From a virus: 38,486 bases of DNA. The first letter of the stretch is position 1, and each line of letters opens with the position of its first letter. The translations under genes were made by a program, and so were the position numbers. Below are positions 25 to 38,486 of this stretch, piece by piece. A model generated the notes under the pieces. The model did no database searches. It was not told the origin of the DNA and saw only the letters and a list, made by a program, of their open reading frames with translations. Location of the stretch: IMG/VR virus record IMGVR_UViG_3300035698_003100, positions 1 through 38,486 of that record; one strand, given 5' to 3'.

Positions 25-2529
25 ATGAATAAACTTGTACAAAAACAAGTAGAAGAAGATGCAGAGTTTTTTGATACTTTAGAAAGTACTCCTGAGTTTA
101 AAAGAATGAAGAAGTTAATTGAGAAAGCTTTATTAGACCAATGGAATGATGTTCTTTTTTCAGGAATAATAAATACTATGTTTAATAAGTATAAGGATTT
201 TATTGTAAAGGGAGGCAAGAAGATACAGATTAAAAAGACAGTTGCTAAAGCTACTAATGAAGAAGAATTAGATGAAGCCATATTGGATAGCTTACAGCAG
301 GATAAATTTTTAGTAGGGGAAAAGGGTATGAAGATGAAACTTTATTTAGCTTTTCTATTAACTTTAGTAAAAACTAATATGAAATCTATTGGTAGTTATT
401 ATGATTTTAGAAAGAATATGAATACTTTCTTAAAAACAATGGCAAATAAAGGAGGGCAAGACATAGTATCTGATATAAAAACGCCTAAGCCTATTAAATT
501 TAGATTATCTAATGTTGCTCTAAAAGCAAAAATAACAAAAAGAGTAAATGTATTAATAAAAGATTTAGACAAAGTTACTAGAAAAATTTTAGTGAGACAT
601 TTAGCTTTAGGTATTAAGAATGGAGAAACAAAAACACAAATAATTAAAAGGCTACAGAAAACAGGAAAGCAATTTTCAAAGACTAGAGCAAAAAGGATAG
701 TAGATACAGAAACAGAAGCGGCAGCAGAATTTATGAGATATGAGACCGCTAGATTAAATGGAGTTACTACGAGAACTTGGGAAACAGCGGGAGATGATAG
801 AGTTTGTTTTCCAAAAGATACTCAAGTAGTTACTGATAGAGGGGAGAGGGGGATACAAGAACTTAAAATAGGAGATAAAGTATTGACTCGAAACGGTTAT
901 AGAAAAGTTACTGCAACTAATAAAAGAAAATATAGTAAGAGTATGACTAGTATAACTACAACTAAGGGGAAGCTAGTGTGTACTAGCGATCATCCGATTT
1001 GGGAAAAAGGTTATGGTTGGTTATGTGCGGGAGATTTCAATGTTGGAGATTTCGTTAAGTCTAAGGAGAATAAATATTTCAGGGTGGATAAGGTGAGTAA
1101 TTTCAGTATCAAGTATGCGTACAACTTTCCATCCATTTTTTATAAGAAAATTATTTTTCCTTTTATCTCTTTGTGCATTAGAATGCCAATATGCTCCATC
1201 TGCTTCGAGAGCAATTTTATATTTAGGCAAAAGAAAGTCAACACTATATCTTCCGACTTGTCCTTCTTGGATAAAGGGAATACCAAGTTTGTACAGACTA
1301 AGCCTGAAGAGCTTTTCAAGAGAAGTTTCTCCAGTAAATTTACGGTAGCACGAGAAAGAGCAAAAACGCCTAATATCTTTTGCATAAGGCATTACTCTAA
1401 ATTGTTTAGCACATTGCTCACAAGTTTTATAAGTAGGAGGACGATAACATTTTTCAGAGCAATATGTTTGTATTCCTATTTTATCTCTAAAAACTTTTTT
1501 ACATCTTTTACAAATAATGTTTCCCATATTTATCCAACGACAGGCGAGGCTACAAACTGTATACCTATGAGAAATACTTTTATTAATTTGAAAAGATTTA
1601 GTACATACAGGGCATATTTTAGTAACCTTTTTAGGAGTTCTAGCTTTTTTATAACATTTAGAAGAGCAGTACTTTTCATTTCTGGCTACTCGACTTTTGT
1701 TAAGATAAAAGGATTTATTACACCCCTTACAGAGGAGAATCTTACCTTGTTTAGTGCTTTTGTGATAACATTTAGGAGAACAATAGGCATTTTTTCCTCT
1801 TATTTTCTTTTCTTTTTTAATGGCTTTACCACATTGATAACAGATATATTGGAACATGCCACACAATTAAGGATTGATTTACTTATAGTATATAGTAGAT
1901 TGTTAGGCAAATCAATATTTGTTTATGACATACAGGTAGAAGAATACCCAGAATTTTATGCAAATGGGATACTTGTACATAATTGTCCTATATGTGCTCC
2001 CTTGGATGGAGTTACTAAAAAAATGAGTCGTAATTTTAATTCAGGAGATTTTTCTGGTAAGTATCCACCAGCTCATGCAGTATGTAGATGCTCAGTTACT
2101 TATGATATAGAAGGTAATGAGGCGAGTAATTTTGTATTAAAAAGAGGGGTATTTGAAACTATTGATGATTTGTTTACAAAAGCGAAACAATTAATTTTTT
2201 ATACTCCTATAAAGACTACTGCAATAAGTGTTGTTAATCCTAATGCGGTATGGGCAGGAGGCAAAACTTTAATAGGTCCCGATAGAGGTATTAGTAAGTT
2301 TATTGAAGATATAAAAATATTTAGAGATTATAAGAGAAATTTAAAAAATATATTAATAATGAAAGAAGGGAAATTGGTAGTGGATATATTAAGAGAACAA
2401 TCAATTTTAACTTTTGGAGTGGATAAGATTTTAGTAGATGCAAGAGATAAATTAACAGATGAAGGATTTGTTCAATTAATCAGGAGTTTTGGAGTTACTA
2501 AGAAGATACCAAGTAAAAATATAACTTAA
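25..2529 (+). CDS. MuF-like minor head protein precursor interrupted by an intein
   Basis: Minor capsid protein of the phage Mu gpF / SPP1 gp7 family, normally associated with the portal and carried in the head. The 834-residue precursor consists of an N-extein (residues 1-260), an intein (261-653) and a C-extein (654-834). Joining the exteins restores the family signature: an SRAKRI-like helix around residue 215-230, then AGDDRV followed by CPICAPLDG, then the PPAHAVCRC motif. The mature protein would be about 441 residues, longer than minimal MuF domains because of a roughly 130-residue tail with no motif I recognise. The start ATG lies in an A/T-rich leader without a Shine-Dalgarno sequence, as in almost every gene here. 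Portal and terminase genes are expected just upstream, outside the window. The intein frame contains no stop, so the precursor can be translated as one chain. The family call is confident; the exact role in this phage is inferred. Confidence 0.9.
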   Translation: MNKLVQKQVEEDAEFFDTLESTPEFKRMKKLIEKALLDQWNDVLFSGIINTMFNKYKDFIVKGGKKIQIKKTVAKATNEEELDEAILDSLQQDKFLVGEKGMKMKLYLAFLLTLVKTNMKSIGSYYDFRKNMNTFLKTMANKGGQDIVSDIKTPKPIKFRLSNVALKAKITKRVNVLIKDLDKVTRKILVRHLALGIKNGETKTQIIKRLQKTGKQFSKTRAKRIVDTETEAAAEFMRYETARLNGVTTRTWETAGDDRVCFPKDTQVVTDRGERGIQELKIGDKVLTRNGYRKVTATNKRKYSKSMTSITTTKGKLVCTSDHPIWEKGYGWLCAGDFNVGDFVKSKENKYFRVDKVSNFSIKYAYNFPSIFYKKIIFPFISLCIRMPICSICFESNFIFRQKKVNTISSDLSFLDKGNTKFVQTKPEELFKRSFSSKFTVARERAKTPNIFCIRHYSKLFSTLLTSFISRRTITFFRAICLYSYFISKNFFTSFTNNVSHIYPTTGEATNCIPMRNTFINLKRFSTYRAYFSNLFRSSSFFITFRRAVLFISGYSTFVKIKGFITPLTEENLTLFSAFVITFRRTIGIFSSYFLFFFNGFTTLITDILEHATQLRIDLLIVYSRLLGKSIFVYDIQVEEYPEFYANGILVHNCPICAPLDGVTKKMSRNFNSGDFSGKYPPAHAVCRCSVTYDIEGNEASNFVLKRGVFETIDDLFTKAKQLIFYTPIKTTAISVVNPNAVWAGGKTLIGPDRGISKFIEDIKIFRDYKRNLKNILIMKEGKLVVDILREQSILTFGVDKILVDARDKLTDEGFVQLIRSFGVTKKIPSKNIT
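1021..1857 (-). CDS. Antisense homing endonuclease (zinc fingers + Vsr/EDxHD-like nuclease) nested in the intein
   Basis: A 278-residue protein read from the strand opposite the intein. It starts at ATG 1857 (a TTG at 1866 would add three residues) and stops at TAA 1021. It holds five repeats of a CxxC - 13 to 17 residues - CxxxC zinc finger (Cys 6/9/26/30, 43/46/64/68, 82/85/102/106, 116/119/133/137, 146/149/166/170). These are followed by a nuclease domain (about 176-265) with Asp207, the EADGAYWH motif (Glu218, Asp220, His225), RDKRK and NGWKVVRILD. This is the pattern of very-short-patch-repair-like nucleases, including the EDxHD homing endonucleases (I-Bth0305I group). The fingers probably recognise the target DNA. 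The gene runs in exact codon register with the intein and its 3' end overlaps true splicing-domain code. It avoids TTA, CTA and TCA entirely. A promoter is predicted at 1887-1915. Homing into intein-less MuF genes is inferred. Confidence 0.87.
   Translation of the reverse strand: MFQYICYQCGKAIKKEKKIRGKNAYCSPKCYHKSTKQGKILLCKGCNKSFYLNKSRVARNEKYCSSKCYKKARTPKKVTKICPVCTKSFQINKSISHRYTVCSLACRWINMGNIICKRCKKVFRDKIGIQTYCSEKCYRPPTYKTCEQCAKQFRVMPYAKDIRRFCSFSCYRKFTGETSLEKLFRLSLYKLGIPFIQEGQVGRYSVDFLLPKYKIALEADGAYWHSNAQRDKRKNNFLIKNGWKVVRILDTEITHLIHPEIFILLRLNEISNIEISRT
1887..1915 (-). promoter_or_regulatory. Predicted promoter of the antisense endonuclease
   Basis: Reading the minus strand, TTGATT (1915-1910), a 17-base spacer and TATACT (1892-1887) form a good sigma-70-type promoter. 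The start point would be near 1880, giving a leader of about 23 bases before the ATG at 1857. The same spacing and -10 hexamer occur in the + strand promoter at 2843-2871. The site lies inside the code for the C-terminal splicing part of the intein. Found by eye only. Confidence 0.5.
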
Positions 2530-7114: not shown

Positions 7115-7705
7115 ATGAGACAAGTGATACACAAGGGACAACACCTTTTAAGACACAAAGCGGAGGAAGTAGGCTATCTGAATGCTACCTTAGGAGCTAG
7201 TATTAAGACTGTTAAAGACGCATTAGATTTGTTTGCGACTCTTAATATTAATTTTAGTTGGAAAGACCCCGTAGCTACTAAAGCGGCTTTACCTTTAACA
7301 GGAAATACTTTAAGTGATGCTAGAATGGTTCAAGATGATGGAGATGGTAATACGTCTTTGTATGTTTGTATAGCTACTTCAGGAGATGTTGATGCACAAT
7401 GGCAGAAAATAGCGGATGTAGATTGGGAAGGAGATATTAGTCAATTACAGAGTGATGTTTCTACATTGCAAGGTGAAATGACTGCTGTAGAAGGAGATGT
7501 TTTTACATTGCAAGGTGAAATGGCGGCAGTAGAAATAGATGTTTTCGGGCTACAAAATGCAGTTAGTATATTACAGGGAGAGATGACTGATGTTCAGGAG
7601 GAAGTGATAGATAAGATGACGCTTACAATTAATGATGATTTATCTGGGTTATTATATCTTAGGGTTGGTGTTGGTAGTAAGATAGAAAATAGAACAACAA
7701 AATAA
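7115..7705 (+). CDS. Fiber-like virion protein with coiled-coil repeat
   Basis: A 196-residue protein. Its N-terminal 105 residues (MRQVIHKGQHLLRHK, then KTVKDALD, LPLTGN, YVCIATSGDVDAQW) are clearly homologous to the start of the next protein and probably form the attachment domain. The remainder (about 110-175) is a heptad-rich coiled coil with repeated LQGEMTAVEGDVF-type units, ending in a short beta segment. This is the architecture of a trimeric fiber or fiber-base. It lies between the capsid and head-tail connector genes, so attachment to the head is as possible as to the tail. Confidence 0.65.
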   Translation: MRQVIHKGQHLLRHKAEEVGYLNATLGASIKTVKDALDLFATLNINFSWKDPVATKAALPLTGNTLSDARMVQDDGDGNTSLYVCIATSGDVDAQWQKIADVDWEGDISQLQSDVSTLQGEMTAVEGDVFTLQGEMAAVEIDVFGLQNAVSILQGEMTDVQEEVIDKMTLTINDDLSGLLYLRVGVGSKIENRTTK

Positions 7706-15661: not shown

Positions 15662-15678
15662 AATAACCTAATAATATT

Positions 15679-16056
15679 ATGTCTTTAACTGAAATTATAG
15701 CAAAATATCTTAATACTAAAGTAACTGTAAGAAGGCGTTCTTTAGTGTCAGATGATATTGGAGGATTAACTGAGACTTGGAATAATATTACAACTGATTT
15801 AGCAGCTACAATTCAAGCAATGACTACAAGAGAAATAAATGATTTATCTCAGGGTAAAGAATTTTTTGCTACTTTTAAAATGTATTGCCCAAATAATGTA
15901 ATAGTAATAAAGAATGGAGATAGAATTTACGATGAAGAGACTACAAAAGAATTTGAGGTTGTGGGAGTTGAAGATAGAAAAGCGTCAAGATCAGATGTCA
16001 CTACAGGACATCACTATAAATTATATTTAAATATTCCTAAAGAAGATAAAACTTAA
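15679..16056 (+). CDS. Head closure protein (SPP1 gp16-like)
   Basis: A 125-residue protein with the small beta-barrel pattern of phage head-tail joining proteins: VTVRRRSLVSDDIGGLTETW near the start, then AATIQAMTTREI and GDRIYDEETTKEFEVVGVED. The order connector, head closure, tail completion, terminator is standard. It is separated from the next gene by two bases, implying translational coupling. Confidence 0.75.
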   Translation: MSLTEIIAKYLNTKVTVRRRSLVSDDIGGLTETWNNITTDLAATIQAMTTREINDLSQGKEFFATFKMYCPNNVIVIKNGDRIYDEETTKEFEVVGVEDRKASRSDVTTGHHYKLYLNIPKEDKT

Positions 16057-19118: not shown

Positions 19119-22100
19119 ATGGCAGTTTCCGCAGAGACATCAATTATTATAGAAGCGATTAATAGAGCTTCAACAGAAATAAGACAAGTTCAAACGGACT
19201 TAATTGGTTTAGGGAAAACTGTAGGAGCTACTAATACAGGGATGGCGGCTTTCAGTTCTAAGTTAAAAAACATAGGAGGACAATTAAGAGGAATAGGTTT
19301 AGGTTTAACAGCTTCTTTGACGTTACCTTTGGTTTTATTAGGGAGAGCAGCATTAAAAACTTCTGAGGAATTTGAACAAAGTATTACGAATGCTTTCTCA
19401 GTAATGCAAGGGGCTTCTGAAAGTGCTAGAGAGGAGCTAACGCTATTCGCAAGACAATTAGGTAAAGATACTGCTTTTACAGCTAGTGAGGCGGCAGACG
19501 GTATATATAAACTAGCTTCAGCAGGTTTAGACACAAAACAAATAATAAAGACTCTTAATCCAGTATTAGCTTTAGCGGCAGCTACTCAATCAGAATTAGC
19601 AGATGTAGCAGAACAAGCTACTGTTGCTATGAAAGTATTTGGTTTAGAAGCTACTGAGGCTGAAAGGATTATGGATACTTTTGCGGCTGGTATTGCTAAC
19701 ACAAATTTAAATTTTAGTCGTATCCAAGAGGCTATGAAATTTGCTGCTCCTTCAATGGCGGCATTTGGGAAGACAGTAGAAGAAACAACTGCGGCATTAG
19801 GGCTATTTGCCAATGCAGGTATATTTGGAACTAGGGCGGGTACTGGGTTAAGAAGAATTTTATCAAGACTAGCCGATCCAACAGCAGAAATGGTTAAAGT
19901 ATTTGGTGAATTAGGAATAGCAATGGATGAGGTTAATCCAGCTACTAAGGATTTAGGAGAAATATTTGATGTACTTCAAGAAAGCGGTATCAATGCTACA
20001 CAAACATTTCGAGCGTTTGGACAAATTGCGGCTACTCCTGTGGTAGCTGTGTTAAAATCTGCGGCAGGACAAGGGCAAGCTGTAAGTGAAGTATTAGACG
20101 AGCTTGAAGGAAAAATGGGTAAGACAGGATTAGCGGCTAAAATAGCGGCAGAACAGATGGATACAGTTTCAGGAGAAATGAGAAAATTAAAATCATCCTT
20201 AGATGAGGTATTTCTTTCTTTTAAAGAAGATGTATTTGGAGACTCAATTAAAGAATTTATAAAAGATGTTAGAATATTTGTTAATGGCTTAGGGGAAATA
20301 CCCGCAGCCACTAAAAGAACTATTGTAGAACTTGGTGGATTATTAGCAATAATAGGGCCATTAACTTTATTAATAGGGGGATTAACGGCGGCTATAGGTA
20401 CTTTACTAACAACCGCAGGAGCTTTAGTAGGAGCGGTAGTCGCTATTTCAGCGGCTTTAATATTTTTCAGGGATAGTGCAATAGCACCACTTATAGCAGT
20501 ATTAGCTACTTTTGGAGCTAGTTTATTAATAATAAATAAATTAGTAGGGTTTTATAAAGTGATACAAAAATCTGTAGTAGCTATGGCAGTTTATCAAAAA
20601 GCTATACAGGCGGGAACGGTAGCAAATTTAGCTTTTGGTAAAAGTTTATTAGCTTTAGCAGTAAATCCTATTGTTTTAGCGGCGGCAGTTATTACTAGTT
20701 TAGTAGCTCTGTTTATTAGAGCTAAAAATAAAGCTACTGAATTAGCAGTAGCCAACGAAAACTTAACAGAGTCTTTTAAACTTTTAAGTTCTGCTGGAGT
20801 TAAAGCACAGCAAGTCGTTACTCCTTTACAGGATGCTATAGATAAGACTAGAGAAGCTAGTGATGAGGTTAGAAGACTAGAAACACAACTTCAAAAGACT
20901 GATTTAGCTTTGGATATTAAAACTCAGTCTTTTGATGATTTAAGAAAACAAATTTTAGATTTTTTAATAGCTACAGGTAGTACTAATGTAGAGATTCAAA
21001 CTATAACGGGAAATATGAGGTTATTTGGAAAAGCTGTAAATAAGTCTACAGACGATATTAATAAATTTGGTAGTAATGTTGAGTTAACTACCGAAGATTT
21101 AGCTGCTTTAGAAAAAGTATCTAAAGCTACAGCAATAACTATATCTCAGAATCTTAGTAAGGCTTTTGATTTTAATGTAAGTACTTTATTAAAATCAGGG
21201 GATACTTTAAAAGAAGCTCTGAATAAAACATTAGACGGGGCTAGAAAAGAGCTAGGCAAATTTCCTCAAGATGTTGAGTTAATGTTTGATGCTTTAAATA
21301 CTCAATTTTTGGCTAGAATAGCTAACCAAGAAGGCATTGGGGCAGCCTATTCTTTTGCTTTTGGTAGAGGTATGACTTCTCAAGATGCTAAACAAAGTTT
21401 AGAGTCTGCTGGAGCTACTATATCAGATACTACTATAGGAGCTATTTTAGCTAAAAGTAAGGACATTGAAGAGGCGGGAGAAATTGATGGTCTTTTATTT
21501 GCTTTAGCATTTGAAGATGCAGGAGAAAGAGCTGCTATTAGAAGTGCTCCTAACGTATTAGCGGCTACCATAGATGCTTTAGATGCTAAAAGACAAGGTT
21601 TAGTGCAAGAAGGTATTATAATAGGTACAGCCACAGGAAATGCAGTTGTAATAGGGCTAGAGAGTACTTTACCTTCTTTACAAGGGGTTACTAGAAGAAT
21701 AGCTGAAGCTTTAAGTTTATTATCTACTAGTGCTGTAAAAGCTGGTCCAGTAGTTAATACTTTGGTAAAATCTTTAGGTAAAATGGCTGGAATAGAAGTA
21801 GTTAATTTTGAGCAAGCTAGTGATACTATGATTGATTTAGCTAAAGGAGCTAATGCGGCAACTGAAGAGCTGGATAACTTGCCACCTGCTATATCAGCAG
21901 GAGGATCAGCAGTTAAAGAGGCTACTAAAGAAATGAAAGAAATGTCCAGTTCTTTAAAAAGATTAGGAATATTTGCTGTTAGAGAAGGAGGAAAAATAGT
22001 TGATACTTTTGATAGCGTTGAAGAAGGAGTAGAAAAAGTAAAAGATAGATTAGCGGAATTAGATAATAGGCAAGCAGAGTTTGCTAGTAATGCTGATGAA

Positions 22101-23608: not shown

Positions 23609-23628
23609 ATCTATATAATTATATAGAT
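23609..23628 (+). promoter_or_regulatory. Perfect palindrome covering the start of the HNH gene
   Basis: Twenty bases, ATCTATATAA followed by its exact reverse complement, end on the first two bases of the ATG of the HNH gene. In RNA this forms a hairpin that would hide the start codon. Phage T4 uses similar hairpins to silence homing endonucleases on early transcripts. Confidence 0.65.
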
Positions 23629-24181
23629 GAATAAAACAGGAAGAAAAATTGGGCATGAAGTTACTAAAGCTACAAGACTTAAAATGAGTTTAGCAGGGAA
23701 AGGTCGCAAAGCTTGGAATAAAGGAATACCTATGTCAGAGGAAGCTAAACTTAAATTGAGCAAAACTAATACAGGAAAAACATGGAGTGAGGAGCATATC
23801 AAAAAGAGGTCTATAAGCATAAAAAAAGCACACTCTACTAAAGGGATGAGGAAGAAAAAAAGTTTATTGCAAAAAGGATCAAAAGGGTCTAATTGGCAAG
23901 GAGGTATAACATCTATGAATATTTGCGGGAGGAATACATCTAAATATAGGGATTGGAGAGAAGAGGTGTTCAAGCGAGATAACTATGAATGCCAAGAACC
24001 AGAATGTAAGAGCAAGAGAGGGAGTTACATAGAAGCTCATCATATAAAATCTTACTCGAAACACATAGAATTAAGGTATGATATAGGAAATGGTATTACA
24101 TTATGCAAAAAGTGTCATAGCAAAACAATTAAAAAAGAAACACATTATGAGAAAAAATATTTTAAACTACTAGCATTATGA
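23627..24181 (+). CDS. Free-standing HNH homing endonuclease with NUMOD3 motifs
   Basis: A 184-residue DNA-binding nuclease. The N-terminal half carries NUMOD3-type DNA-binding motifs (ATRLKMSLAGKGRKAWNKGI, then SEEAKLKLSKTNTGKTWSEE). The C-terminal half is an HNH domain: WREEVFKRDNYECQ, then EAHHIKSY, then NGITLCKKCHS with the closing His. It sits between the tape measure and distal tail genes and overlaps the next start (ATGA). This is the typical place for a free-standing homing endonuclease that cuts the neighbouring gene of a rival phage. A palindrome overlaps its start codon. Confidence 0.9.
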   Translation: MNKTGRKIGHEVTKATRLKMSLAGKGRKAWNKGIPMSEEAKLKLSKTNTGKTWSEEHIKKRSISIKKAHSTKGMRKKKSLLQKGSKGSNWQGGITSMNICGRNTSKYRDWREEVFKRDNYECQEPECKSKRGSYIEAHHIKSYSKHIELRYDIGNGITLCKKCHSKTIKKETHYEKKYFKLLAL

Positions 24182-27378: not shown

Positions 27379-30300
27379 ATGTCAATTACATCATATTTAT
27401 TAAATGGAAATGAGGCTAACAACAGTGCTAAAGAGGTTGGAGGCGGTTTTCAATTAATGGCTTCAGAAGGTGTTTTAAACACTTCGGGAACTAATCAAGA
27501 TTTTGAAGTAACGGAAAGTGCAGTACCAGCAATGACTGTAGCAGTCGCAGATGGAGCGGTTCACGTACAGTATACGAAAGACGCAGAAACTTGGAAAGTT
27601 ATTAATATCAGTGATGCAGTAGCTACTTTAAATATAACTGCTAATACTTCGGGTTCTAATAGGATAGACGCTGTTATTATTCACATGCTTCAAGATGCTC
27701 CTGATAATTTAAAGGATAACGTGGGAGAATTAGTAGTTATTCCTGGTTCAGGTATAACCGCTTTATTAGATGCGGATATTGATAATGCTATTGGAGATGC
27801 GAATTGGTATAGACTAGCTGATGTAACAGTTGCAAATGGAGCGGTTACTATATTAGATGCTAGTATAACTGATACGAGAGCTGGAATTGCTTTAGAAGGA
27901 ATGGTAGACACGACAAACGATCAAACGGTTGGAGGAGTAAAAACATTTTCTTCTTTCCCTGTTACTCCTAGTACAGCCCCTACAACTAATTATCAGGCGG
28001 CAAATAAAAAATATGTTGATGATAATGTAGGTTCTGCTCCTGTGCAGGTTACATATACTGCTGAGGAAGCAATGGATATAGGTAAACCTGTTTCAGCTTC
28101 AAGTATTGCTGGACAGGCTTTAAATATGGTTAAAAATTCTTTAAATAATCCAGGAACAGTCGGAACTGTATCTGCAAATAATTGCGGTTTTACAGATGCT
28201 TGTAATATAGACGATAATGTTGCGGCAGTTATTTATACTAATAATACAGACAATAAAGTATATCTAGCAGGTGTTTCAGTAGACCCATATAAAGAGCCTA
28301 CTATGGGAACCCCTGTAGAGGTACAAAGTGTTACAGCTAATCTCCTTAGAATATGTAAGGTTGGTACTAATAAAGTTGCGGTAATTTATCTTAGAAATGC
28401 TAACGCCACTTTATACTCAAGAATTGCTACCTTTGTAGGAACAGTTCCTACTCTTGGTGCGGAGTTAATCGTAAGTGCAATAGGAGGAATGGATACTGCT
28501 TACCATTATGCGGCAGATATTACGGCAATAGGTACAGACAGAATTGTGGTAGCTTGGAGAGATAATAATTTGGCAGATGCAGGAAGTATAGTAGCTTCTA
28601 CATTAACTGGAACAACTATTGACGCGTATAGTGTTGTGCAAACTTTTGAAGCGGGTACTGTAAAATATGTATCTCTTTCAAAAAATAGTGCAACTGCTGG
28701 GGTAGTGTTTTATCAAGATGGAGGAGATTCTAATCATGGTAAAGGACATGCTTTTTCAATAGCAGGAACAGTTATTACATTAAATGGAACTCCTGTAGAT
28801 TTTGAAACTAATGGAACTTGTCAATATATAGATTCTTCTTATATTGAGGATAATAATATTTTATTGACTTGGAATTATCTTACAGACGTTTTTGGAGCAA
28901 TAGCTTCACTTTCAGGTTTGACTATTAGTTATGGAGCAGTGACTACTATTTATGATAGTGCTTCTACTCCTGCAAAGACTGTGAATGTGGTTATAGATAC
29001 TACACATGCCTTTTTAGTCACTGAAGATGGTGGAACTAATAGTGGGCATTTATTTGATTTAACTTTAGATACTGCGGCTAATACAGTTACTAATGATGAT
29101 AGATTAATTTATAACACTTTAAATAGTGGAGGTAATATTGAATATCCGTCTATAGCTAAATTAGGAGATCGTTCTCAGTTTATAGCTTTTTTCCAAGATG
29201 AGGATGATACTAATAAATTGAAGTGTGAGGCTTATCAGGTTTATGATAATTCTGACTCTTTAATTGGTTTTGCTTCCTCTACAGTAGTAGCTACTGATCC
29301 AATTGCTGTTAGAAGCAAAGGTGAAATGGATAATCAAACTGTCACATTAACCCCTGGTCTATCTGTATACGTACAAGGAGGCGGTGAGATGGGACACGCT
29401 GAAACAGATATTAGAGTAGGTGTAGCAAATGCTACTGATACTATTGATTTAGATATAGATAGAAAATTTTTAAACTTAGGTGTAGGTGATGGTTCAGATG
29501 GGCCTTTAGTAATAGCATCAGGAACTACTTATCTAAATTTAGGACAAGTATATAATTTCAGCTCTATAAGTCTTTCTGGTGGAGCTACTTTAGCTTTTAC
29601 AGGAGATGAAGACGCTGCTTTAGTTAATTGTTTAGGGAATTGTACCTTAGCTGGAACTGTGGAACTTAGAAATTCAGTTACAGATCGTTTAGGTATTATA
29701 ACACAAAGATTTAATTTAACTACTGGTGATGGCTTTAGCTTTACTGCTTCAGAAGGAGGAGTTGGTGGAGTTGGTGCTTTTGGAGGAGGGGCTGGTGGAG
29801 ATGGTGATGCGGCTTCAGGTAGTCCTGGTACAGGAGGAGCTGGTGGAGCATTAAGTACTATTGGAGCAGACGGAGAAGGTGGAAACTCAACCGTTGGTGG
29901 AGGAGGAGGAGGCGGCGGAGGAGGAAACTTAGGAGTAGGTTCTGCTGGGTCAACTACTGCAAATGATAATGGAGGTAATGGGGGTACGCCTGGTAGTGGA
30001 AATGATGGCCCTGGAGGAGGGGGAGCTGGAGGAGCTATTAATAGTGGAAATGGGGGAACTGGTGCGGCGGGTGCAAGTACTGGGTCAGGAAATGGTTCTG
30101 GAGGGCAGGGAGGAGCAGGAGGAAATTCTGGTCCTGATGGAGGAAATGGAGGACTTGGTGGAACTGGGGGTAATAGTTCCGTTAATGCGCCCTCTATAGC
30201 TGGAGGACTTGCTGGAAAGGGAGGAGATGGATATGCTGCGGGTGGAGTTGGGGGTATAGGAGGAGGTGGAAATCCTGCTGCAACTGGTGGTGTTGGTGGA

Positions 30301-30798
30301 AGAGCGACTCACGGAACTGGTGGTACTGGTGGTGCTGGAGCTATAGGAGGAGCTGGACACGCAGGAGGGCAAGGAGGAGCTGGTGGAGATGGCCGAACTG
30401 GTGGAGTTGGAGGTATTGGCGGACTAGCCGCTTCACATATAGGGGGACAAGGAGGAACTGGTGGTAATGGATTGACAGGAGCAACTGCGTTTTTACTACA
30501 AGTAGGAGGAGATTTGAATGTGACTGGAGTTACTGTTAACGCTCAAGGTGGAGCTGGTGGTGCTGGTGGAAATGGGCCTGCCGCTAATGGTGCCGCAGGA
30601 GATGGAGGAGATGGAGGTAGAGGATCAGACGTGATTATGGTATGTGTAGGAACTTTAACTGGTGGTACTGGTGGGGTATATAACTCAGGAGGAGCTAGTG
30701 GAGCACCAGGTTTAGCGACTGGAACAGGAGCAGTTGGAGAACAAGGAGCGCAAGGAGAAGACGGAAAGATATACGTTAATAAATTAACAAACATGTAA
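27379..30798 (+). CDS. Tail-tip adhesin with large glycine-rich domain
   Basis: A 1139-residue receptor-binding candidate. The N-terminal domain (about 1-170: SYLLNGNEANNSAKEVGGGF, a VADGAVHVQYT strand, then RIDAVIIHMLQDAPDN) is typical of proteins that attach to the baseplate. A linker motif DQTVGGVKTFSSFP with YQAANKKYVDD marks the fiber shaft. A beta-propeller-like part spans about 240-640. Residues about 792-1124 are a glycine-rich domain of GGxGG repeats (GGAGGDG, GGTGGNG and the like), resembling the polyglycine-II sandwich of Salmonella phage S16 gp38-like adhesins, with less Gly-rich loops between. The end is EDGKIYVNKLTNM. Local GC content is raised and there is a run of GGA/GGC codons. 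The fold is inferred from composition. Confidence 0.75.
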   Translation: MSITSYLLNGNEANNSAKEVGGGFQLMASEGVLNTSGTNQDFEVTESAVPAMTVAVADGAVHVQYTKDAETWKVINISDAVATLNITANTSGSNRIDAVIIHMLQDAPDNLKDNVGELVVIPGSGITALLDADIDNAIGDANWYRLADVTVANGAVTILDASITDTRAGIALEGMVDTTNDQTVGGVKTFSSFPVTPSTAPTTNYQAANKKYVDDNVGSAPVQVTYTAEEAMDIGKPVSASSIAGQALNMVKNSLNNPGTVGTVSANNCGFTDACNIDDNVAAVIYTNNTDNKVYLAGVSVDPYKEPTMGTPVEVQSVTANLLRICKVGTNKVAVIYLRNANATLYSRIATFVGTVPTLGAELIVSAIGGMDTAYHYAADITAIGTDRIVVAWRDNNLADAGSIVASTLTGTTIDAYSVVQTFEAGTVKYVSLSKNSATAGVVFYQDGGDSNHGKGHAFSIAGTVITLNGTPVDFETNGTCQYIDSSYIEDNNILLTWNYLTDVFGAIASLSGLTISYGAVTTIYDSASTPAKTVNVVIDTTHAFLVTEDGGTNSGHLFDLTLDTAANTVTNDDRLIYNTLNSGGNIEYPSIAKLGDRSQFIAFFQDEDDTNKLKCEAYQVYDNSDSLIGFASSTVVATDPIAVRSKGEMDNQTVTLTPGLSVYVQGGGEMGHAETDIRVGVANATDTIDLDIDRKFLNLGVGDGSDGPLVIASGTTYLNLGQVYNFSSISLSGGATLAFTGDEDAALVNCLGNCTLAGTVELRNSVTDRLGIITQRFNLTTGDGFSFTASEGGVGGVGAFGGGAGGDGDAASGSPGTGGAGGALSTIGADGEGGNSTVGGGGGGGGGGNLGVGSAGSTTANDNGGNGGTPGSGNDGPGGGGAGGAINSGNGGTGAAGASTGSGNGSGGQGGAGGNSGPDGGNGGLGGTGGNSSVNAPSIAGGLAGKGGDGYAAGGVGGIGGGGNPAATGGVGGRATHGTGGTGGAGAIGGAGHAGGQGGAGGDGRTGGVGGIGGLAASHIGGQGGTGGNGLTGATAFLLQVGGDLNVTGVTVNAQGGAGGAGGNGPAANGAAGDGGDGGRGSDVIMVCVGTLTGGTGGVYNSGGASGAPGLATGTGAVGEQGAQGEDGKIYVNKLTNM

Positions 30799-31486: not shown

Positions 31487-32545
31487 ATGGCAAAAATAAT
31501 AACCTTATCAGATTTTTCTAATGTTGTTTATGGGCAATACCATGCGTACAATTTAAGATTTTTTAATGAACACTTTGGAGAAGACTATTGGACAATACCT
31601 GTTTCAGAGTTTCCGCATACTAAATTTTTAGAAAGTTTAGATGAGAAAGGAGTAGAAAATACTGATAGTTTTTATTATCAGTTTTTAAATAATGCTTTTG
31701 AGAGACCAGGTAGTTTACCAAATACTAAAAAGATAAAGCTTTTAAAACAAAAGAAATTTGTAGAATTCTTGGAAGAAATTAGAGCGAATCCTGATATGTT
31801 ATTAACATTAAAGAGAGATAACCATGCTTGCGGGTCTTATAGAAAAGACGGAAAGCTTGCTATATTACATGGAAACCATAGAGTAGCTATTGCTGCTTAT
31901 TTGGGTATACCTTTAAAAATAAAAGTGCAAGATGATTTTAAGAAAAATTTGAAAAGGTACTTTGATAGACACTTGGAAGTAAATCCTAAATTTTTTGATG
32001 GCTTAAAACAGCCTTATCAGAGTATATTCGACGGAGAAGAAGAAATAGCTGAAGGACGAAGACCAGATATTTTAGAGAGATTCAAGAAAATAAACTTAGA
32101 AGATATTAAAGGAAAGAGAGTTTTAGAGTTTGGCTGTAATGTAGGAGCTTCTTTATATTTAGCTTTAGAGAATGAAGCTACTTACGCTTTTGGAATAGAA
32201 ATGAATCCCTTAACTGTAAATATAGCTTTAAAATTAAATACTTATTTTGCCAAAAATATTAACTTTCTTAATGTTAATTTAAATAATGATTTTGAAATAA
32301 AGGAAAAATTTGATACTGTTTTTTGTTTATCTATTGCAGGATATGTTAAGGATTGGGATAGATTATCAAAATTTATTTTAGATACAGATTTAAAAGTTAT
32401 GTATTTTGAAGGGCATATAAATAAGAAAATAGTAGATTATGTAGACCTATTTAAGCATTTTTCTAAAATTGAATTCTTAGGATATAATAAAGATCAAAGA
32501 AAAACAGATACATACACAAGACCCTTTTTCAGATGTATAAGATAA
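31487..32545 (+). CDS. ParB-like domain fused to a SAM-dependent methyltransferase
   Basis: A 352-residue protein. Around residues 125-140, ILHGNHRVAIAAYLGIPL matches the DG-HR core of ParB/sulfiredoxin-like domains (here HGNHR). From about 205, a class I methyltransferase follows: VLEFGCNVGASLYLAL (SAM-binding loop), then YAFGIEMNP, then FDTVFCLSIAGYV. Such fusions occur in phage and cell-surface polysaccharide loci. The substrate is unknown; the neighbouring glycan genes suggest a sugar or small molecule. Confidence 0.7.
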   Translation: MAKIITLSDFSNVVYGQYHAYNLRFFNEHFGEDYWTIPVSEFPHTKFLESLDEKGVENTDSFYYQFLNNAFERPGSLPNTKKIKLLKQKKFVEFLEEIRANPDMLLTLKRDNHACGSYRKDGKLAILHGNHRVAIAAYLGIPLKIKVQDDFKKNLKRYFDRHLEVNPKFFDGLKQPYQSIFDGEEEIAEGRRPDILERFKKINLEDIKGKRVLEFGCNVGASLYLALENEATYAFGIEMNPLTVNIALKLNTYFAKNINFLNVNLNNDFEIKEKFDTVFCLSIAGYVKDWDRLSKFILDTDLKVMYFEGHINKKIVDYVDLFKHFSKIEFLGYNKDQRKTDTYTRPFFRCIR

Positions 32546-32547
32546 AC

Positions 32548-32576
32548 TTGAAAAAGTTAAAAAAGTTCGCTATATT
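32548..32576 (+). promoter_or_regulatory. Promoter of the TTGAAAAAG family
   Basis: TTGAAA (32548-32553), a 17-base spacer and TATATT (32571-32576). The -35 and spacer form a tandem repeat TTGAAAAAG-TTAAAAAAG, shared with 34.7 and 35.5 kb. It starts three bases after the preceding stop codon. Confidence 0.6.
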
Positions 32577-32600
32577 ATATTAGTAACATAAAAATTTATT

Positions 32601-33995
32601 ATGAATGGAAAGTATCAATTTGCAGGAATAGTTTGGACTGCGAGAACAAAGACAATCGCTAAGTATATTAAAGATGACACTAATGTTTTAGATTTAGGTG
32701 GTGGGGTAGAACACTTAAAGGAATTCATAAAACCTAAAAAATATATCAGCGTAGATTACTGTAAAGTAAAACCTTCTACAGTAGTTGCAAATTTAAATCT
32801 GAAGTTACCAGATTTTGAGACAAGATTTCACTATGTTGTTTGTCAGGGGGTATTAGAGTATTTGGATGATGTTCCAGGAGTTTTAAAAGGAATAAAAAAA
32901 TATGCTAAAACTTTATTAGTAACTTACTTTGACAGGTCTAGAAAGCATAGAGCTTGGGTAAATAATTATACATTTTGGGAATTTGAACAAATATTAAAAG
33001 AAGCTGGTTGGTATATTAAAAAGAAAGAACAAGTAATGGATGGAGGACAGGCTTTATATTATTGCACACAGACCCCACCTAAAAAAATATTATTTGCAGG
33101 AGCTTCGGGGTATAAAAATATTGGTGATGATGGGTATAAACAAGTTTTTGAAAAACATTTAGGGCTTAATTATGAGTTGTATTTTGACAGTCCTTATCCT
33201 GATATGAGGTATTTTGAAGAAGGGATTGACCATGTAGTTATTGGTGGAGGAGGTTTGTTATATGATAATAAAACAGAGCATTTTAATTACATGAAAATGT
33301 ATTTAGACGAAGCAATTAAAAGGAATATTGATTTTTCTTTTATTTCTTGTGGAGTTCAAATAGTAAATTATTCCATAAAATTACCTGAAGAAAAAGTATT
33401 AGAGATTGGTATAAAAGAATTGCAGAGATGGAAACCTTATTTAGATAAGGCTAAAGTAATTACAGTTCGTTCTGAAATGGATAGAAAGATTATTAAAGGA
33501 GTGTGTCCTGAGTCTAATGTTCATTACGTTCCTGATTTATGTTATTTATTAATGCCTTGTGATAGACATCTAACTTTGCCTAATTCAGCAGTATTTATTC
33601 TTACTAAATTAAGTTTAAAGGGAAATGGAGATAAATTTAGAGAGCTATGGGATAAATATAAATGTTATGGAAACAGAAGATATGTTATTGCAATGGCGCA
33701 AGATGATGAAGATATTACAGAAGAGTATGCTAATAAAATACAAGCAGGTGGTCATTATTCTATAAGAACAAGTTTGACTCCTACTGAAGTAGCTAGAATT
33801 ATTAGGGATGCTGATAAAGTAATTAGTGCTAGGTATCATGGTCATGTGTTAGCAAGAGCTTGTGGTAAAGCGGAAGAAGATATTGATGTAATAGACCTTA
33901 GATATAAGAGTATGGTAGAGCAAAAACCTGATAGACTTACAGACGCTAAAGAAAATATTATATTATTAACACAAGCAATAAATGGAAGATTATAA
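32601..33995 (+). CDS. Methyltransferase-polysaccharide pyruvyl transferase fusion
   Basis: A 464-residue two-domain enzyme. Residues 1-155 are a small class I methyltransferase (NVLDLGGGVEHLKEFI, then HYVVCQGVLEYLDDVPGVL and WYIKKKEQVMDGG). Residues about 160-455 match polysaccharide pyruvyl transferases: ILFAGASGYKNIGDDGY, the VVIGGGGLLYDN loop, SFISCGVQ, the ITVRSEMDRKII motif and ISARYHGHVLARACG near the end. Pyruvyl transferases add ketal pyruvate from phosphoenolpyruvate to sugars of surface polymers. Both domains are recognisable; activity is inferred. It overlaps the next gene by 14 bases. Confidence 0.8.
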   Translation: MNGKYQFAGIVWTARTKTIAKYIKDDTNVLDLGGGVEHLKEFIKPKKYISVDYCKVKPSTVVANLNLKLPDFETRFHYVVCQGVLEYLDDVPGVLKGIKKYAKTLLVTYFDRSRKHRAWVNNYTFWEFEQILKEAGWYIKKKEQVMDGGQALYYCTQTPPKKILFAGASGYKNIGDDGYKQVFEKHLGLNYELYFDSPYPDMRYFEEGIDHVVIGGGGLLYDNKTEHFNYMKMYLDEAIKRNIDFSFISCGVQIVNYSIKLPEEKVLEIGIKELQRWKPYLDKAKVITVRSEMDRKIIKGVCPESNVHYVPDLCYLLMPCDRHLTLPNSAVFILTKLSLKGNGDKFRELWDKYKCYGNRRYVIAMAQDDEDITEEYANKIQAGGHYSIRTSLTPTEVARIIRDADKVISARYHGHVLARACGKAEEDIDVIDLRYKSMVEQKPDRLTDAKENIILLTQAINGRL

Positions 33996-34689
33996 AATTG
34001 TTGAGGCGAAAGGTCTCAAATGGGCGGTTAGAGCATCGTCTAAAATTGGTAACTGCACTCAAGACATGTTAGGGCCAAATGAAAGAGAGGATTATAACTT
34101 TGAAGTACTGGAAAAATACTCAGGTAAAGATAAAACCTTTTTAGATATTGGAGCACATGTAGGAGGTTTTTCAATGATTGCTTCAAAATTATTTGGTTCC
34201 GTGTATTCTTTTGAACCTCAACCTTTTAATTTCGAGGGATTATCAGAGAATATAAAATTGAATAATTTAGCTAATGTTATAGCTATTAATAAAGGAGTGG
34301 GTAATGAAATTACTGAAAAAGAAATATCAGCTAGAGGAGGAGGCTCTAAGATTTATTCAGGTAATATACCTAAAATACCTAAAGTTACTTACGATAAAAT
34401 TTCCCTTACTACTATAGATAGTATGAAATTTAAATTGCCTGTTTCAGTAATAAAAATAGATACTGAAGGATATGAAGAGCAAGTTTTAGAAGGAGCAAAA
34501 CAAACTATTGCTAAATTTAGACCTGTAATAATTATAGAAACTCACGAAAAAACCTATCATGGTGAGCCTATGGTTAAAGGACAAATAGAGAGATTAAAAA
34601 AATTATTAGTAGAGAATATGTATTATGAATGGCATTTAGCTTTTAAGACACACTTTGGAGATGAGCATTTAATTTGTATTCCAAAATAA
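33982..34689 (+). CDS. FkbM family methyltransferase
   Basis: A 235-residue protein with the FkbM pattern: KTFLDIGAHVGGFSMIA (SAM loop starting at about residue 53), YSFEPQPFNFEGLSENIKLN, the central TTIDSMKF, then VIKIDTEGYEEQVLEGA and PVIIIETHEKTYH. FkbM enzymes O-methylate sugars or polyketides. Together with the pyruvyl transferase and the glycosyltransferases it points to modification of a surface glycan. Start chosen at the overlapping ATG 33982, typical of coupled translation. Confidence 0.88.
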   Translation: MEDYKIVEAKGLKWAVRASSKIGNCTQDMLGPNEREDYNFEVLEKYSGKDKTFLDIGAHVGGFSMIASKLFGSVYSFEPQPFNFEGLSENIKLNNLANVIAINKGVGNEITEKEISARGGGSKIYSGNIPKIPKVTYDKISLTTIDSMKFKLPVSVIKIDTEGYEEQVLEGAKQTIAKFRPVIIIETHEKTYHGEPMVKGQIERLKKLLVENMYYEWHLAFKTHFGDEHLICIPK

Positions 34690-34693
34690 AAAC

Positions 34694-34722
34694 TTGAAAA
34701 AGTTGAAAAAGTAATATATAAT
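34694..34722 (+). promoter_or_regulatory. Strong promoter of the TTGAAAAAG family
   Basis: TTGAAA (34694-34699), a 17-base spacer and a perfect TATAAT (34717-34722). TTGAAAAAG occurs twice in tandem (34694-34711). Start point near 34729; the next ATG is at 34748. Confidence 0.75.
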
Positions 34723-34747
34723 ACAATCATAAATTAATCCAAAAGAC

Positions 34748-35044
34748 ATGCTTGATTTTTTACCATTTATATTAATATCTATAACGCTTATTATTTGTTC
34801 TAATATTTTAGGTAGAGTTTCAGGAAAGATTGAGTCTTTAAAATTCTTCGAGAAAGTAGTTGAAGATATTTGTGATAGAAGAAGAAAAGATTTAGATGCT
34901 TATACTCTTCTTTTTGTTTTAGATACTTTTCAGAGACATTTATTAGAATCTACTGAGGCAGGAAAAAGAATAAAAAAAGAGCGTTTAGAAAAACAAAAAA
35001 AGGGGTGGAAAAAAATACCAAATGAATCATGTAATAAAAAATAA
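34748..35044 (+). CDS. Small membrane-anchored hypothetical protein
   Basis: A 98-residue protein with one N-terminal membrane segment (about 3-21, DFLPFILISITLIICSNIL) and a long charged helical remainder (FFEKVVEDICDRRRKDLDAY, TLLFVLDTFQRHLLES) ending in Lys-rich sequence. It is co-transcribed with the Fic gene, whose start lies one base after its stop. It might modulate Fic, but it lacks a Fic-inhibitory SxxxEG motif. Function unknown. Confidence 0.6.
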   Translation: MLDFLPFILISITLIICSNILGRVSGKIESLKFFEKVVEDICDRRRKDLDAYTLLFVLDTFQRHLLESTEAGKRIKKERLEKQKKGWKKIPNESCNKK

Positions 35045-35045
35045 A

Positions 35046-35537
35046 ATGAGTATTAAAATAAATACTGAAGTAGAAAGGTTTCTTTATGAATCTAATTTAA
35101 TAGAGAGGGAGCCTAGTGAGAGGGCTTTTATAGATGCAAAAATAGCTTGGCAATATACTAGAGCAAATAAGAAGCTAGATGTAAGTAACATATTAGAGAT
35201 ACATGGGTTATTAATGAAGGGGCTGAACCCAAGAATTGCGGGGAAATTTAGAAACTGCGATGTATGGATAGGGGGCAATAGAAAAACATTTGTCAGCTAT
35301 AGATTATTCATAGAACAATTAAATGAAGTATTAAGGCAATTAAATAAATTTAAAAAGAATAATGAATGTGATGCTAGAAGATTGCACATAGACTTTGAAA
35401 ACGTACATCCATTTGAAGATGGAAATGGTAGGGTAGGTAGAATTATTTATAATTTTTATAGGCTGAAATCTGGTTTACCTTTAGATATTATTTATGATGC
35501 TGAGAAAGGAGAATACTATAAATGGTTTAAAGATTAA
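35046..35537 (+). CDS. Fic domain protein (probable AMP or other NMP transferase)
   Basis: A 163-residue protein from ATG 35046; an upstream in-frame ATG at 35022 would add eight residues but overlaps the previous gene. The Fic core HPFEDGNGRVGR begins at His121, with all residues needed for nucleotide transfer, preceded by a helical bundle (IHGLLMKGLNP, then AGKFRNCDVWIGG, the flap region). An N-terminal segment SNLIERE (residues 16-22) resembles the inhibitory SxxxE(G/N) motif, but Arg replaces the Gly/Asn, so autoinhibition may be altered. Fic enzymes add AMP or other nucleotide groups to proteins; in a phage this could change host targets. The target is unknown. Confidence 0.88.
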   Translation: MSIKINTEVERFLYESNLIEREPSERAFIDAKIAWQYTRANKKLDVSNILEIHGLLMKGLNPRIAGKFRNCDVWIGGNRKTFVSYRLFIEQLNEVLRQLNKFKKNNECDARRLHIDFENVHPFEDGNGRVGRIIYNFYRLKSGLPLDIIYDAEKGEYYKWFKD

Positions 35538-35541
35538 AAAC

Positions 35542-35570
35542 TTGCAAAAGTTAAAAAAGTAATATATTAT
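35542..35570 (+). promoter_or_regulatory. Promoter of the TTGAAAAAG family before recA
   Basis: TTGCAA (35542-35547), a 17-base spacer and TATTAT (35565-35570), with the TTGCAAAAG-TTAAAAAAG tandem repeat. Start point near 35577, 17 bases before the ATG. Confidence 0.65.
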
Positions 35571-35593
35571 CAATATATAATAACTATAAAAAT

Positions 35594-36562
35594 ATGCCTA
35601 CATTAGATGAAATGCTAAAGATTGTTAAAAAGAAGCATGGAGATGGGTCTTTAATTCAGTACGGTAAGGAAGAAAAGATTGTTGATATTCCTAGAATTAC
35701 TACAGGATTACCTAGCTTAGATTTAATTTTAGGCGGTGGTGTTCCAGAAGGTAGAATAATGGAAGTATTTGGCCCTGAAAGCTCTGGTAAAACGACTATG
35801 GCGATTCATATGTTGTCTAAATGTCAGGAAGAAGGAAAAAAGGTAGTCTTTATGGATTTAGAATATGCCTTTGATCCTGTTTACGGTAAACAGTTAGGTT
35901 TAGATTTAAAAGAATTAATTATAAGTCGCCCTGATAGCGGTGAAGCGGCTTTGGATATAGTAGAGAAATTATGTCAGACAAACGACATAGCGGCTATTGT
36001 AATAGACTCTGTGGCTCAATTAATGCCTATGGCTACTATTGCTAAAGAGATAGACGGTACTCAAAATATAGCTACTACAGCAAGGCTCCTTAGCCAGACA
36101 ATGCCTAGATTAAGTCATGCGGCTTCAAAAAGTGGTACTGCTCTTATATTCATTAATCAGATAAGAATGAATGTAGGGCAATTATGGGGAAACCCAGAAG
36201 TTACTCCAGGAGGCAGAGCATTAAAATATATGTCTTCAATTAGATTAGATGTTAGAGGAGCTAGTAAAGCGGAAGAAAGAAATGGAAAAGAAGGAATACC
36301 AGTAAAAGTTACAGTAAAGAAAAATAAAACAGCTCCACCTTTTAGGCAAACTGAATTATTTTTAGTATTTGGAGAAGGGTTTGATGAAGTAGCAGATTTA
36401 TTAGAAACTGCTTTACAAGTAGGTATTATAGAAAAAGCAGGAGGGTGGTATTCTTACAAAGCAATTAAGGAACAAGGATTTGATAATTTTTGCGATAAAC
36501 TACGAAAGGATAAAGATTTAATGAAAATAATTAGAACGACTCTATCAGAAATTAAAACTTAA
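35594..36562 (+). CDS. recA: RecA-like recombinase
   Basis: A 322-residue homolog of bacterial RecA. Visible landmarks: LPSLDLILGGGVPEG, Walker A GPESSGKTT (residues 60-68), VVFMDLEYAFDP (the IDAEHALDP region of RecA), IAAIVIDSVAQL (Walker B), RLLSQTMPRL, the FINQIRMNVG loop (L2 side) and TPGGRALKYMSS. The C-terminal half is shortened relative to E. coli RecA (353 residues). It would form filaments on single-stranded DNA and promote strand exchange, so it could serve recombination-dependent replication and the repair of breaks made by the homing endonucleases. Single gene behind its own promoter. Confidence 0.93.
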   Translation: MPTLDEMLKIVKKKHGDGSLIQYGKEEKIVDIPRITTGLPSLDLILGGGVPEGRIMEVFGPESSGKTTMAIHMLSKCQEEGKKVVFMDLEYAFDPVYGKQLGLDLKELIISRPDSGEAALDIVEKLCQTNDIAAIVIDSVAQLMPMATIAKEIDGTQNIATTARLLSQTMPRLSHAASKSGTALIFINQIRMNVGQLWGNPEVTPGGRALKYMSSIRLDVRGASKAEERNGKEGIPVKVTVKKNKTAPPFRQTELFLVFGEGFDEVADLLETALQVGIIEKAGGWYSYKAIKEQGFDNFCDKLRKDKDLMKIIRTTLSEIKT

Positions 36563-36573
36563 CCATATTAATT

Positions 36574-37323
36574 ATGTTATCAACAGAGGATTTAGAGTCT
36601 CAAGATTCTATTCAAAAAAGGAAAGAAACTTATTCTGAAAAGGAAATTAAAGAGCAAGCAGATAAAACCCTTACACAATTAGATTTGGGTAAAATAGGTA
36701 TAGTTTTCAGTCCTACTTCTTCAGCTATGCTAAAAAAAGGATTAGATTGTATAAGAGATAATTTACAAAATATAGATTATGGGGTAGTTGTAGTAGTACA
36801 AAAAGATATTATATTAGAGGAACACAGGCAAGAAAAGGCGAATGTTAAATTTATAGAAACTCCTAAAGTAGATGTATTTGCTAAAAAGAATATAGGGAGA
36901 CAGTTAATAAATACTGATATTAAATATATTTTATTTATAGATACATTATCTTATATAGATGTTGATGATTTTGAGATTACAGAGAATTTGGTTAAAGCTA
37001 GAATTGCTCCTTTGCATTTAGAGCCTACATGTGGAGTAGTTGGCGAAATGTCTTCCCAAACTTTATCAGAAGAAATTGTAGAAGATATTATAGGCTCTCT
37101 TTCTAAGAAAGTTAATTTTAATAGAGATGTTTATACTGAAAGATGTCTTACTGAAGATGGTAGGCTTAGATTTGCTGAAGCTAATTCAATGGCTGTAACA
37201 GTAAGTATTTGGGATTTATTCGGGGGTTTTAATATAAAAGACCAATATCCAAGTATTGAATATTGTTTAAGACTTCAATTATTAGGCTACAAAATTATTT
37301 TACAACAATTAAATGAAAGATAA
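36574..37323 (+). CDS. Glycosyltransferase-like protein (GT-A type)
   Basis: A 249-residue protein with the layout of GT2-like glycosyltransferases: an N-terminal Rossmann-like segment (KIGIVFSPTSSAMLKKGL, then YGVVVVVQKDIIL), KYILFIDTLSYIDVDD in the place of the metal-binding DxD region, and the acceptor-side motif FGGFNIKDQYPSIEYCLRLQ with LLGYKI. The GG(F)-x-E pattern with 'lGYKi' is typical. It overlaps the next glycosyltransferase by 11 bases. Family likely, substrate unknown. Confidence 0.65.
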   Translation: MLSTEDLESQDSIQKRKETYSEKEIKEQADKTLTQLDLGKIGIVFSPTSSAMLKKGLDCIRDNLQNIDYGVVVVVQKDIILEEHRQEKANVKFIETPKVDVFAKKNIGRQLINTDIKYILFIDTLSYIDVDDFEITENLVKARIAPLHLEPTCGVVGEMSSQTLSEEIVEDIIGSLSKKVNFNRDVYTERCLTEDGRLRFAEANSMAVTVSIWDLFGGFNIKDQYPSIEYCLRLQLLGYKIILQQLNER

Positions 37324-38486
37324 ACAAACTAATAAAGACGGCAAAAGCCCTATTAAAGTAGAATTAATTGGTAAGCAATTAGGTATTTCAATTAGTTCTA
37401 TAAAAGCGGCTAATGTAGTATGTAACAAAACATATATAGAAAAAAATACTCCTAGAAAGAAAATTAAAGTTTTATGGTATTCAGATTTTTTACGTCCTAC
37501 AGGATTTGGTAATGTAGCTGAAGAAATACTTACTCGATTAAAAGCTACAGGAAAATATGAGTTTACAGTATTAGGGATAAACTATAATGGAGTTCCTTAT
37601 AATACTCCCGATAGTGAATATTATCATTTGAAAGATATTAAAGTATGGCCCGCATTTTCTAAACCAGGAGATAATTTATTTGGGTATAATAAACTTAGAG
37701 AATTATTAGTAGAAGAAGAATATGATATTTTCTTTGCTTTACAAGATTCATTTAATATGATTCCTCTTAAAGGAGATTTAGAAAATATTAAAAAACGTAA
37801 AGATTTTGCTTATATATTTTATTTCCCTATTGATGGTAATATTAAAAGAGATTGGGTTGAGCATGGTATTAAGGTAGCTGATTTTCCAGTCACTTATACA
37901 GATTATGGTATAAGTAAAGTGAATAAATTATGTTCTTCTATAAAATTAAGTAAGATGTATCATGGAGCGGATTTAGATAAATTTAAACCTTTTGATACCG
38001 AAGTAGATAGAAAGAAATTTAGAGCAAAATTTTTCGGTAAAGACGCAGTAGATGATTTTATTATTGTTAATGTTAATAGAAATCAAAGAAGAAAAGATTT
38101 ACCTAGATGTGTATTTGCATTTCAAGATTTTTGTGAAAAGAATCCAAAAATTCCTGCAAGATTATATTTGCATTGTTTAGGTAACGATAGTGCAGGATAT
38201 AATCTTATTGACTTAATAAGGGAAAACATACCTAGACATATTGCAGATAGAATAGCTATGCCTTCAGCTCATATATTTGGAGAAGGAGGGTATCCAGTAG
38301 AAATACTTAGTAAAATATATGCTTCAGCAGATATAGTTACTTCAACTACTACAGGTGAAGGTTGGGGATTATGCTTACATCCTGAAAGTATGATTAAAAC
38401 TTCTAATGGGTATAAAGAAATTAGTAGTATAAAACAGGGAGAAAAAGTTTTAACTCGAAAGGGGTATAAAGAGGTAGTAGATAAAA
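37313..38486 (+). CDS. GT4-type glycosyltransferase interrupted by an intein (runs off the window)
   Basis: This ORF begins at ATG 37313, overlapping the preceding stop, and is open to the window end (391 codons). Residues about 50-353 form a GT-B glycosyltransferase: IKVLWYSDFLRPTGFGNVAE (nucleotide-sugar binding start), DIFFALQDSFNMIP, YIFYFPIDGNI, MYHGADLDKFKPFD, FIIVNVNRNQRRKDLP and the donor-site motif TTTGEGWGL at about 345-353. The next residue, Cys354, starts an intein exactly where GT4 enzymes continue to their E-x7-E motif. The second half of the intein and the C-extein are outside the window. It probably acts with its neighbours on surface glycans. Confidence 0.85.
   Translation, partial: MKDKQTNKDGKSPIKVELIGKQLGISISSIKAANVVCNKTYIEKNTPRKKIKVLWYSDFLRPTGFGNVAEEILTRLKATGKYEFTVLGINYNGVPYNTPDSEYYHLKDIKVWPAFSKPGDNLFGYNKLRELLVEEEYDIFFALQDSFNMIPLKGDLENIKKRKDFAYIFYFPIDGNIKRDWVEHGIKVADFPVTYTDYGISKVNKLCSSIKLSKMYHGADLDKFKPFDTEVDRKKFRAKFFGKDAVDDFIIVNVNRNQRRKDLPRCVFAFQDFCEKNPKIPARLYLHCLGNDSAGYNLIDLIRENIPRHIADRIAMPSAHIFGEGGYPVEILSKIYASADIVTSTTTGEGWGLCLHPESMIKTSNGYKEISSIKQGEKVLTRKGYKEVVDK
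38372..38486 (+). mobile_element. N-terminal part of a second intein (truncated by the window end)
   Basis: Cys1 (38372-38374) is followed by ESMIKTSNGYKEISSI, then KQGEKVLTRKGYKEV: the block A pattern of Hint domains. Of the first 35 residues, 14 match the intein in the MuF-like gene, including KVLTR and GY. Insertion is in the conserved GEGWGL region of the glycosyltransferase. Whether it carries an endonuclease, and on which strand, cannot be seen. Confidence 0.85.

Follow-up and report, generated by a model that had tools for sequence, protein, structure and literature searches.

The window, which is the entire IMG/VR record of 38,486 bases, ends within an open reading frame (ORF) on the plus strand (37313-38485; 391 aa, with no stop before the contig ends) that reads ...STTTGEGWGL followed by CLHPESMIKTSNGYKEISSIKQGEKVLTRKGYKEVVDK. 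The portion upstream of this junction is the N-extein of a GT4 glycosyltransferase (Table 1). It contains a GT-B N-terminal half and the glycine-rich GEGWGL upstream of the position of the E-x7-E motif, matches the glycosyltransferase phrog_2170 (E = 1.6e-26), and is 37.7% identical to the GT4 of phage TJE1 (E = 5e-52). A profile of the N-extein and its relatives matches PDB entry 3oy2 (B736L; 1.1e-47), the nearest solved GT4, which lacks an intein. Searches with the GT4 gene and with its upstream neighbor led to no close relatives. The adjoining region (31487-36562) is likely a glycan-modification cassette, with methyltransferases, a polysaccharide pyruvyl transferase, and an FkbM methyltransferase, followed by a Fic-domain protein and RecA.

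Table 1. Features of the window, of contigs assigned to the same phage, and of the comparison sets.
Feature	Position or locus	Strand or frame	Details
GT4 glycosyltransferase N-extein	37313..38371	+	353 aa, ATG to GEGWGL
Insertion point (GEGWGL, then C)	38371..38372		Shortly upstream of the first Glu in E-x7-E
Intein 2 start (Cys1 and Hint block A)	38372..38485	+	38 aa, truncated where the contig stops
Intein 1	805..1983	+	393 aa, in Phage_Mu_F-like minor head gene 25-2529; Hint_2 8.3e-7, Intein_splicing 3.6e-7
ORF antisense to intein 1	1021..1866	-	281 aa; Cys clusters and DUF559/Vsr-like nuclease; DUF559 1e-9, Vsr 6.6e-5
Helicase intein	L210:16922-17992		357 aa; same phage, via G001
ORF nested in helicase intein	L210:17214-17984	another sense frame	256 aa; DUF559 4.8e-12
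DNA polymerase A intein	L211:2293-3582		430 aa; same phage, via G001
ORF nested in polymerase intein	L211:2429-3490	another sense frame	353 aa; DUF559 5.8e-9
TerL intein			342 aa, in-frame HNH_3; same phage, via G001
GT4-site inteins with GEGWGL	L010, L039, L048, L063, L131, L074, L080, L081, L128
GT4-site inteins with GEGFG[L/F]	L088, L099, L100, L105, L108, L109, L111, L122, L123
Other inteins with the block A motif	L181, L183-L187, L189, L192, L193, L195, L197-L199	+2 (nested ORF)	Nested ORFs of 178-243 aa

Exactly at 38372, and in frame with the GT4, the [CST]xxE expected from the E-x7-E motif is replaced by the beginning of an intein (intein 2), the Cys1 codon of which occupies 38372-38374. 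The insertion lies between GEGWGL and the residue three positions before the first Glu of E-x7-E. The 38-residue segment matches Pfam Hint_2 with an E value of 7.9e-5, below the curated cut-off of the family because just 34 of the 147 profile positions are present. Its best solved match is the gp41-1 intein (6qaz; E = 7e-4), and 24 of its 38 residues are identical to the start of the phage intein L192. It also aligns with nine inteins located at the same joint of other GT4 genes and gives weak matches to the PT-HINT and Vint profiles. The original prediction of a Hint block A after GEGWGL, in place of the E-x7-E region, is thus borne out by the Hint_2 and gp41-1 matches.

The record shows the first 38 residues of intein 2; block B (TxxH), any endonuclease, block G, and the C-extein, with E-x7-E and the C-terminal half of the GT4, would follow beyond position 38486. 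Homologues supply the expected HN-[CST] splicing end and C-extein. Scans of IMG/VR with the joint, the block A motif, and the GT4 DNA returned no other contig of this phage that holds or continues the joint, and the start of the near-identical contig G001 was ruled out as a continuation of the GT4. A contig break driven by a repeat shared between inteins 1 and 2 was also rejected, as their longest common exact match is just 11-12 bases. A minus-strand ORF at 38269-38484 (71 aa) is uninformative as to an endonuclease, since it lies across the GT4 extein and is still open where the contig stops.

Complete inteins occupy this exact joint in at least 18 distinct viral GT4 genes in IMG/VR, in each case with GEG[W/F]G[L/F] before an intein that begins with Cys and ends in HN, and with C, S, or T after it. 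We searched with a degenerate DNA pattern for GEGWGLC and with a second pattern for GEGFG[L/F]C plus one further codon whose middle base is T, and candidates were accepted after each frame had been read. Cys1 is therefore common to all 18 by construction, and the counts are minimum values, since the patterns recognize Cys-initial but not Ser-initial inteins. Past the intein, the extein continues with xxE or, in the L105/L109/L111 group, with CPF[TS]AG, and block B is seen in the aligned relatives. The inteins range from about 140 aa (L074, without an endonuclease) to about 440 aa and are LAGLIDADG-like or mini-inteins, an assignment with Pfam support for L010 and L080 and made by eye for the others. 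Two GT4 genes are each filled at the joint in L128 and in the contig of L048 and L111. In L128, the two genes are adjacent (GEGWGL at 4883 and GEGFGL at 7954), and their inteins are clearly different in sequence.

The joint is empty in many other viral GT4 relatives, including those of the cultured phages TJE1 (GEGWGLSLTEAMA) and S-CBS4, and in B736L the insertion point aligns to the junction between GEGFGL and CSAE. Three tblastn searches with intein-bearing GT4 queries recovered no cultured phage with an intein at this joint. Flavobacterium phage immuto was considered and rejected, as its GT4 is uninterrupted; matches in Erwinia, Enterococcus, and Eggerthella phages are to genes not annotated as glycosyltransferases (e.g., a cytosine methyltransferase and a tRNA synthetase), and two bacterial GEGWGLC matches lack an intein. 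We found no paper naming a GT4 intein site in the literature searched. The GT4 joint appears to be a hot spot of intein insertion that has gone undescribed, where a nucleotide-sugar motif has been invaded by several different-looking inteins.

We conclude that ORF 37313-38485 is very probably a phage GT4 interrupted in frame by the N terminus of an intein. This reading is based on the in-frame joint, the Hint match, the occurrence of at least 18 inteins at the same joint, the existence of homologues with an empty site, and the presence of four other inteins in the phage. The complete inteins in 18 other viral GT4s agree with the original proposal of a GT4 intein cut by the window edge. A decayed or nonsplicing Hint remnant, or a different Hint-family domain (BIL, PT-HINT, or Hedgehog-like), could give the weak PT-HINT and Vint matches, and the C-terminal half lies past the contig end. 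However, an insert in the most conserved GT4 motif is expected to destroy the enzyme unless it is spliced, the relatives have intein-type ends at the identical joint, and the frame is intact up to the contig end, so we regard such a domain as very improbable. If intein 2 is an intein of the expected kind, the GT4 precursor would have no activity before self-excision of the intein. The intein would continue to block B and a terminal HN-[CST], and its splicing would restore GEGWGL-[CST]xxE. It may have spread by homing into the conserved GT4 site.

Contigs nearly identical to the window emerged from a search with G[DE]KVLTR[NKDE]GY, the block A motif. Matches at 99.9% extend over window positions 1-30216 for G001 (72.6 kb) and 1-30510 for G002, and intein 1 is present in G001, G002, and L190 (99.9% identical). 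The original prediction of two inteins in one phage proved to be an understatement, given that G001 brings in three more, in helicase, DNA polymerase, and terminase genes. If the window is joined correctly beyond 30.5 kb, the total for this phage is five or more (in the helicase, DNA polymerase A, TerL, minor head, and GT4 genes). For comparison, crAss-like phages have up to three inteins per genome (PMC7886860).

G001 and G002 both stop at window positions 30216-30510, within a glycine-rich repeat gene, and the window alone continues. The coincidence of these ends, at 30.2-30.5 kb, and a fall in G+C content from about 35% to 29% after 31 kb could indicate an assembly chimera, in which 30.5-38.5 kb, including the GT4, and the remainder of the window come from two separate phages. 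We found no other contig that overlaps this region or confirms the join. Against a chimera, an ORF of 1139 aa runs unbroken across the point, and sugar-modification genes are often AT-rich cargo. We consider a chimera unlikely, and the intein would be real in both cases.

In three of the four complete inteins of this phage, a DUF559/Vsr-like endonuclease ORF overlaps the intein frame, antisense in one case and in another sense frame in two. The antisense ORF of intein 1 is longer than in every one of 300 codon shuffles. An overlapping-frame endonuclease, mostly of the HNH type, occurs in all 14 distinct viral inteins selected by the motif G[DE]KVLTR.GY. The 13 other than intein 1 (Table 1) each have a +2-frame ORF that reads as an HNH domain with zinc fingers; L193, the sole one of these scanned, matches HNH_3 at 8.3e-15. 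In L181, L184, L197, and L199, the script recognized no HN end, and the intein was followed for as long as its frame stays open. Nested +2-frame HNH ORFs are also present in inteins of TJE1 terL (L216), Highwayman, and LS06 (L217, L218), the genes for which are annotated as terminase only. These three were found by an HNH query and not by the motif, and all three have LTRxGY in block A. In a control, the nested HNH ORF was absent from the 12 GT4-site inteins examined.

The overlap was evaluated by holding the nested protein fixed, redrawing codons from the flanking genes, and counting stops in the intein frame. The expected mean ranges from 1.6 to 36 stops, and none is observed in any of the 19 inteins. 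The probability of no stop is <0.01 in 14 of the 19 and 0.037-0.122 in L181, L186, L189, TJE1, and LS06. As L181 lacks available flanking genes, its codons were sampled at nearly equal frequencies. The effect is weaker with the codon usage of the nested ORF itself and is gone for intein 1 (P = 0.28). Such a loss would be expected if the codons of the ORF were already shaped by the other frame, although this is not proof. Within the HNH class, 120 of 120 pairs show stronger conservation of the HNH frame than of the intein frame (mean identity, 0.375 versus 0.208), in an alignment built on the HNH frame and thus biased toward its conservation.

To which class does intein 2 belong? Its 38 residues contain GEKVLTRKGY, which fits G[DE]KVLTR.GY. 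As this motif accompanies an overlapping-frame endonuclease in 14 of 14 inteins and is found in none of the 18 GT4-site inteins, we predict that intein 2 is dual-coding, with splicing and homing written in two overlapping frames. The motif class and the three other inteins of the same phage favor an endonuclease in an overlapping frame, as in intein 1, the helicase and polymerase inteins, and the LTRxGY inteins, and thereby also favor the original suggestion that the second intein may carry a non-standard endonuclease. In members of this class, the nested nuclease ORF lies downstream of the stretch that corresponds to these 38 residues, so that in intein 2 it would fall outside the record. The prediction is based on about ten residues of sequence, and we hold it to be somewhat probable. 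Across the whole segment, all 14 motif inteins score above every GT4-site intein, a ranking biased by the selection for the motif. Outside GEKVLTRKGY, the classes interleave, and a class call from that part of the head was rejected.

Intein 2 may instead be conventional, with an in-frame LAGLIDADG endonuclease or as a mini-intein, like the 18 that fill the same joint. The complete inteins known at this joint are of these types (nested HNH in 0 of 12), and the head of intein 2 outside GEKVLTRKGY does not separate the classes. However, LTRxGY is absent from all 18, whereas the motif-selected inteins all have the overlapping endonuclease and, with the bias noted above, the higher segment scores. 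We consider a conventional intein 2 a possibility to be held tentatively. If intein 2 is dual-coding, an intein of this class would have captured an active-site joint of GT4 that is occupied by LAGLIDADG inteins in other phages, and a single phage would harbor four dual-coding elements.

Intein 2 shares host family and insertion point with the GT4-joint inteins of uncultured phages (L010, L039, L063, L080, L081, L128, and others), the aligned GT4 hosts being 24-38% identical, yet those are LAGLIDADG-like or mini-inteins without LTRxGY. With the LTRxGY inteins (TJE1 terL, Acinetobacter phage Highwayman, Rhodobacteraceae phage LS06, and L181-L199), it has in common the motif and a fused, open frame. 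There, the host is a terminase in the three annotated phages, and the nested +2-frame HNH that is predicted for intein 2 is seen directly. In the gp41-1-type phage inteins (6qaz, 6riz), the intein is split and the nuclease is outside the intein frame, whereas the frame of intein 2 is fused and open over the length present, and its host gene is a GT4. Dassa et al. reportedly described in 2009 that gp41-1-type inteins are split in metagenomic phage genes, with a free-standing, often Vsr-like, endonuclease gene between the halves. It is plausible that dual-coding inteins are an intermediate between inteins with in-frame endonucleases and fractured genes with split inteins and a free-standing endonuclease.

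It is not certain that the dual-coding class is new. A 2025 preprint by Gosselin is said to report actinobacteriophage inteins with a "non-canonical architecture" and may already describe out-of-frame nucleases. An out-of-frame HNH insertion is known from phage methylases as the ShiLan domain; it has HNH and zinc fingers in another frame and leaves the host frame open, as in the inteins with nested ORFs. In contrast to these inteins, it has no detectable splicing domain (PMC11855218). Standard annotation misses dual-coding inteins, as illustrated by the three sequenced phages that carry them in genes labeled only as terminase. Translation of the second frame and the upkeep of both open frames are directly testable questions.

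Apart from its inteins, the phage has free-standing endonuclease genes dispersed along the genome. A gene of the HNH/NUMOD3 type at 23627-24178 was confirmed with Pfam, and further genes of this type were recognized by sequence resemblance (L210:5765-6277, 15326-16024, and 19407-20000; L211:4400-5002). Separately, near-identical relatives have some 40-50 extra bases at about window position 7496-7503, within a tail-like gene (7115-7705) that contains repeated coiled-coil-like units.
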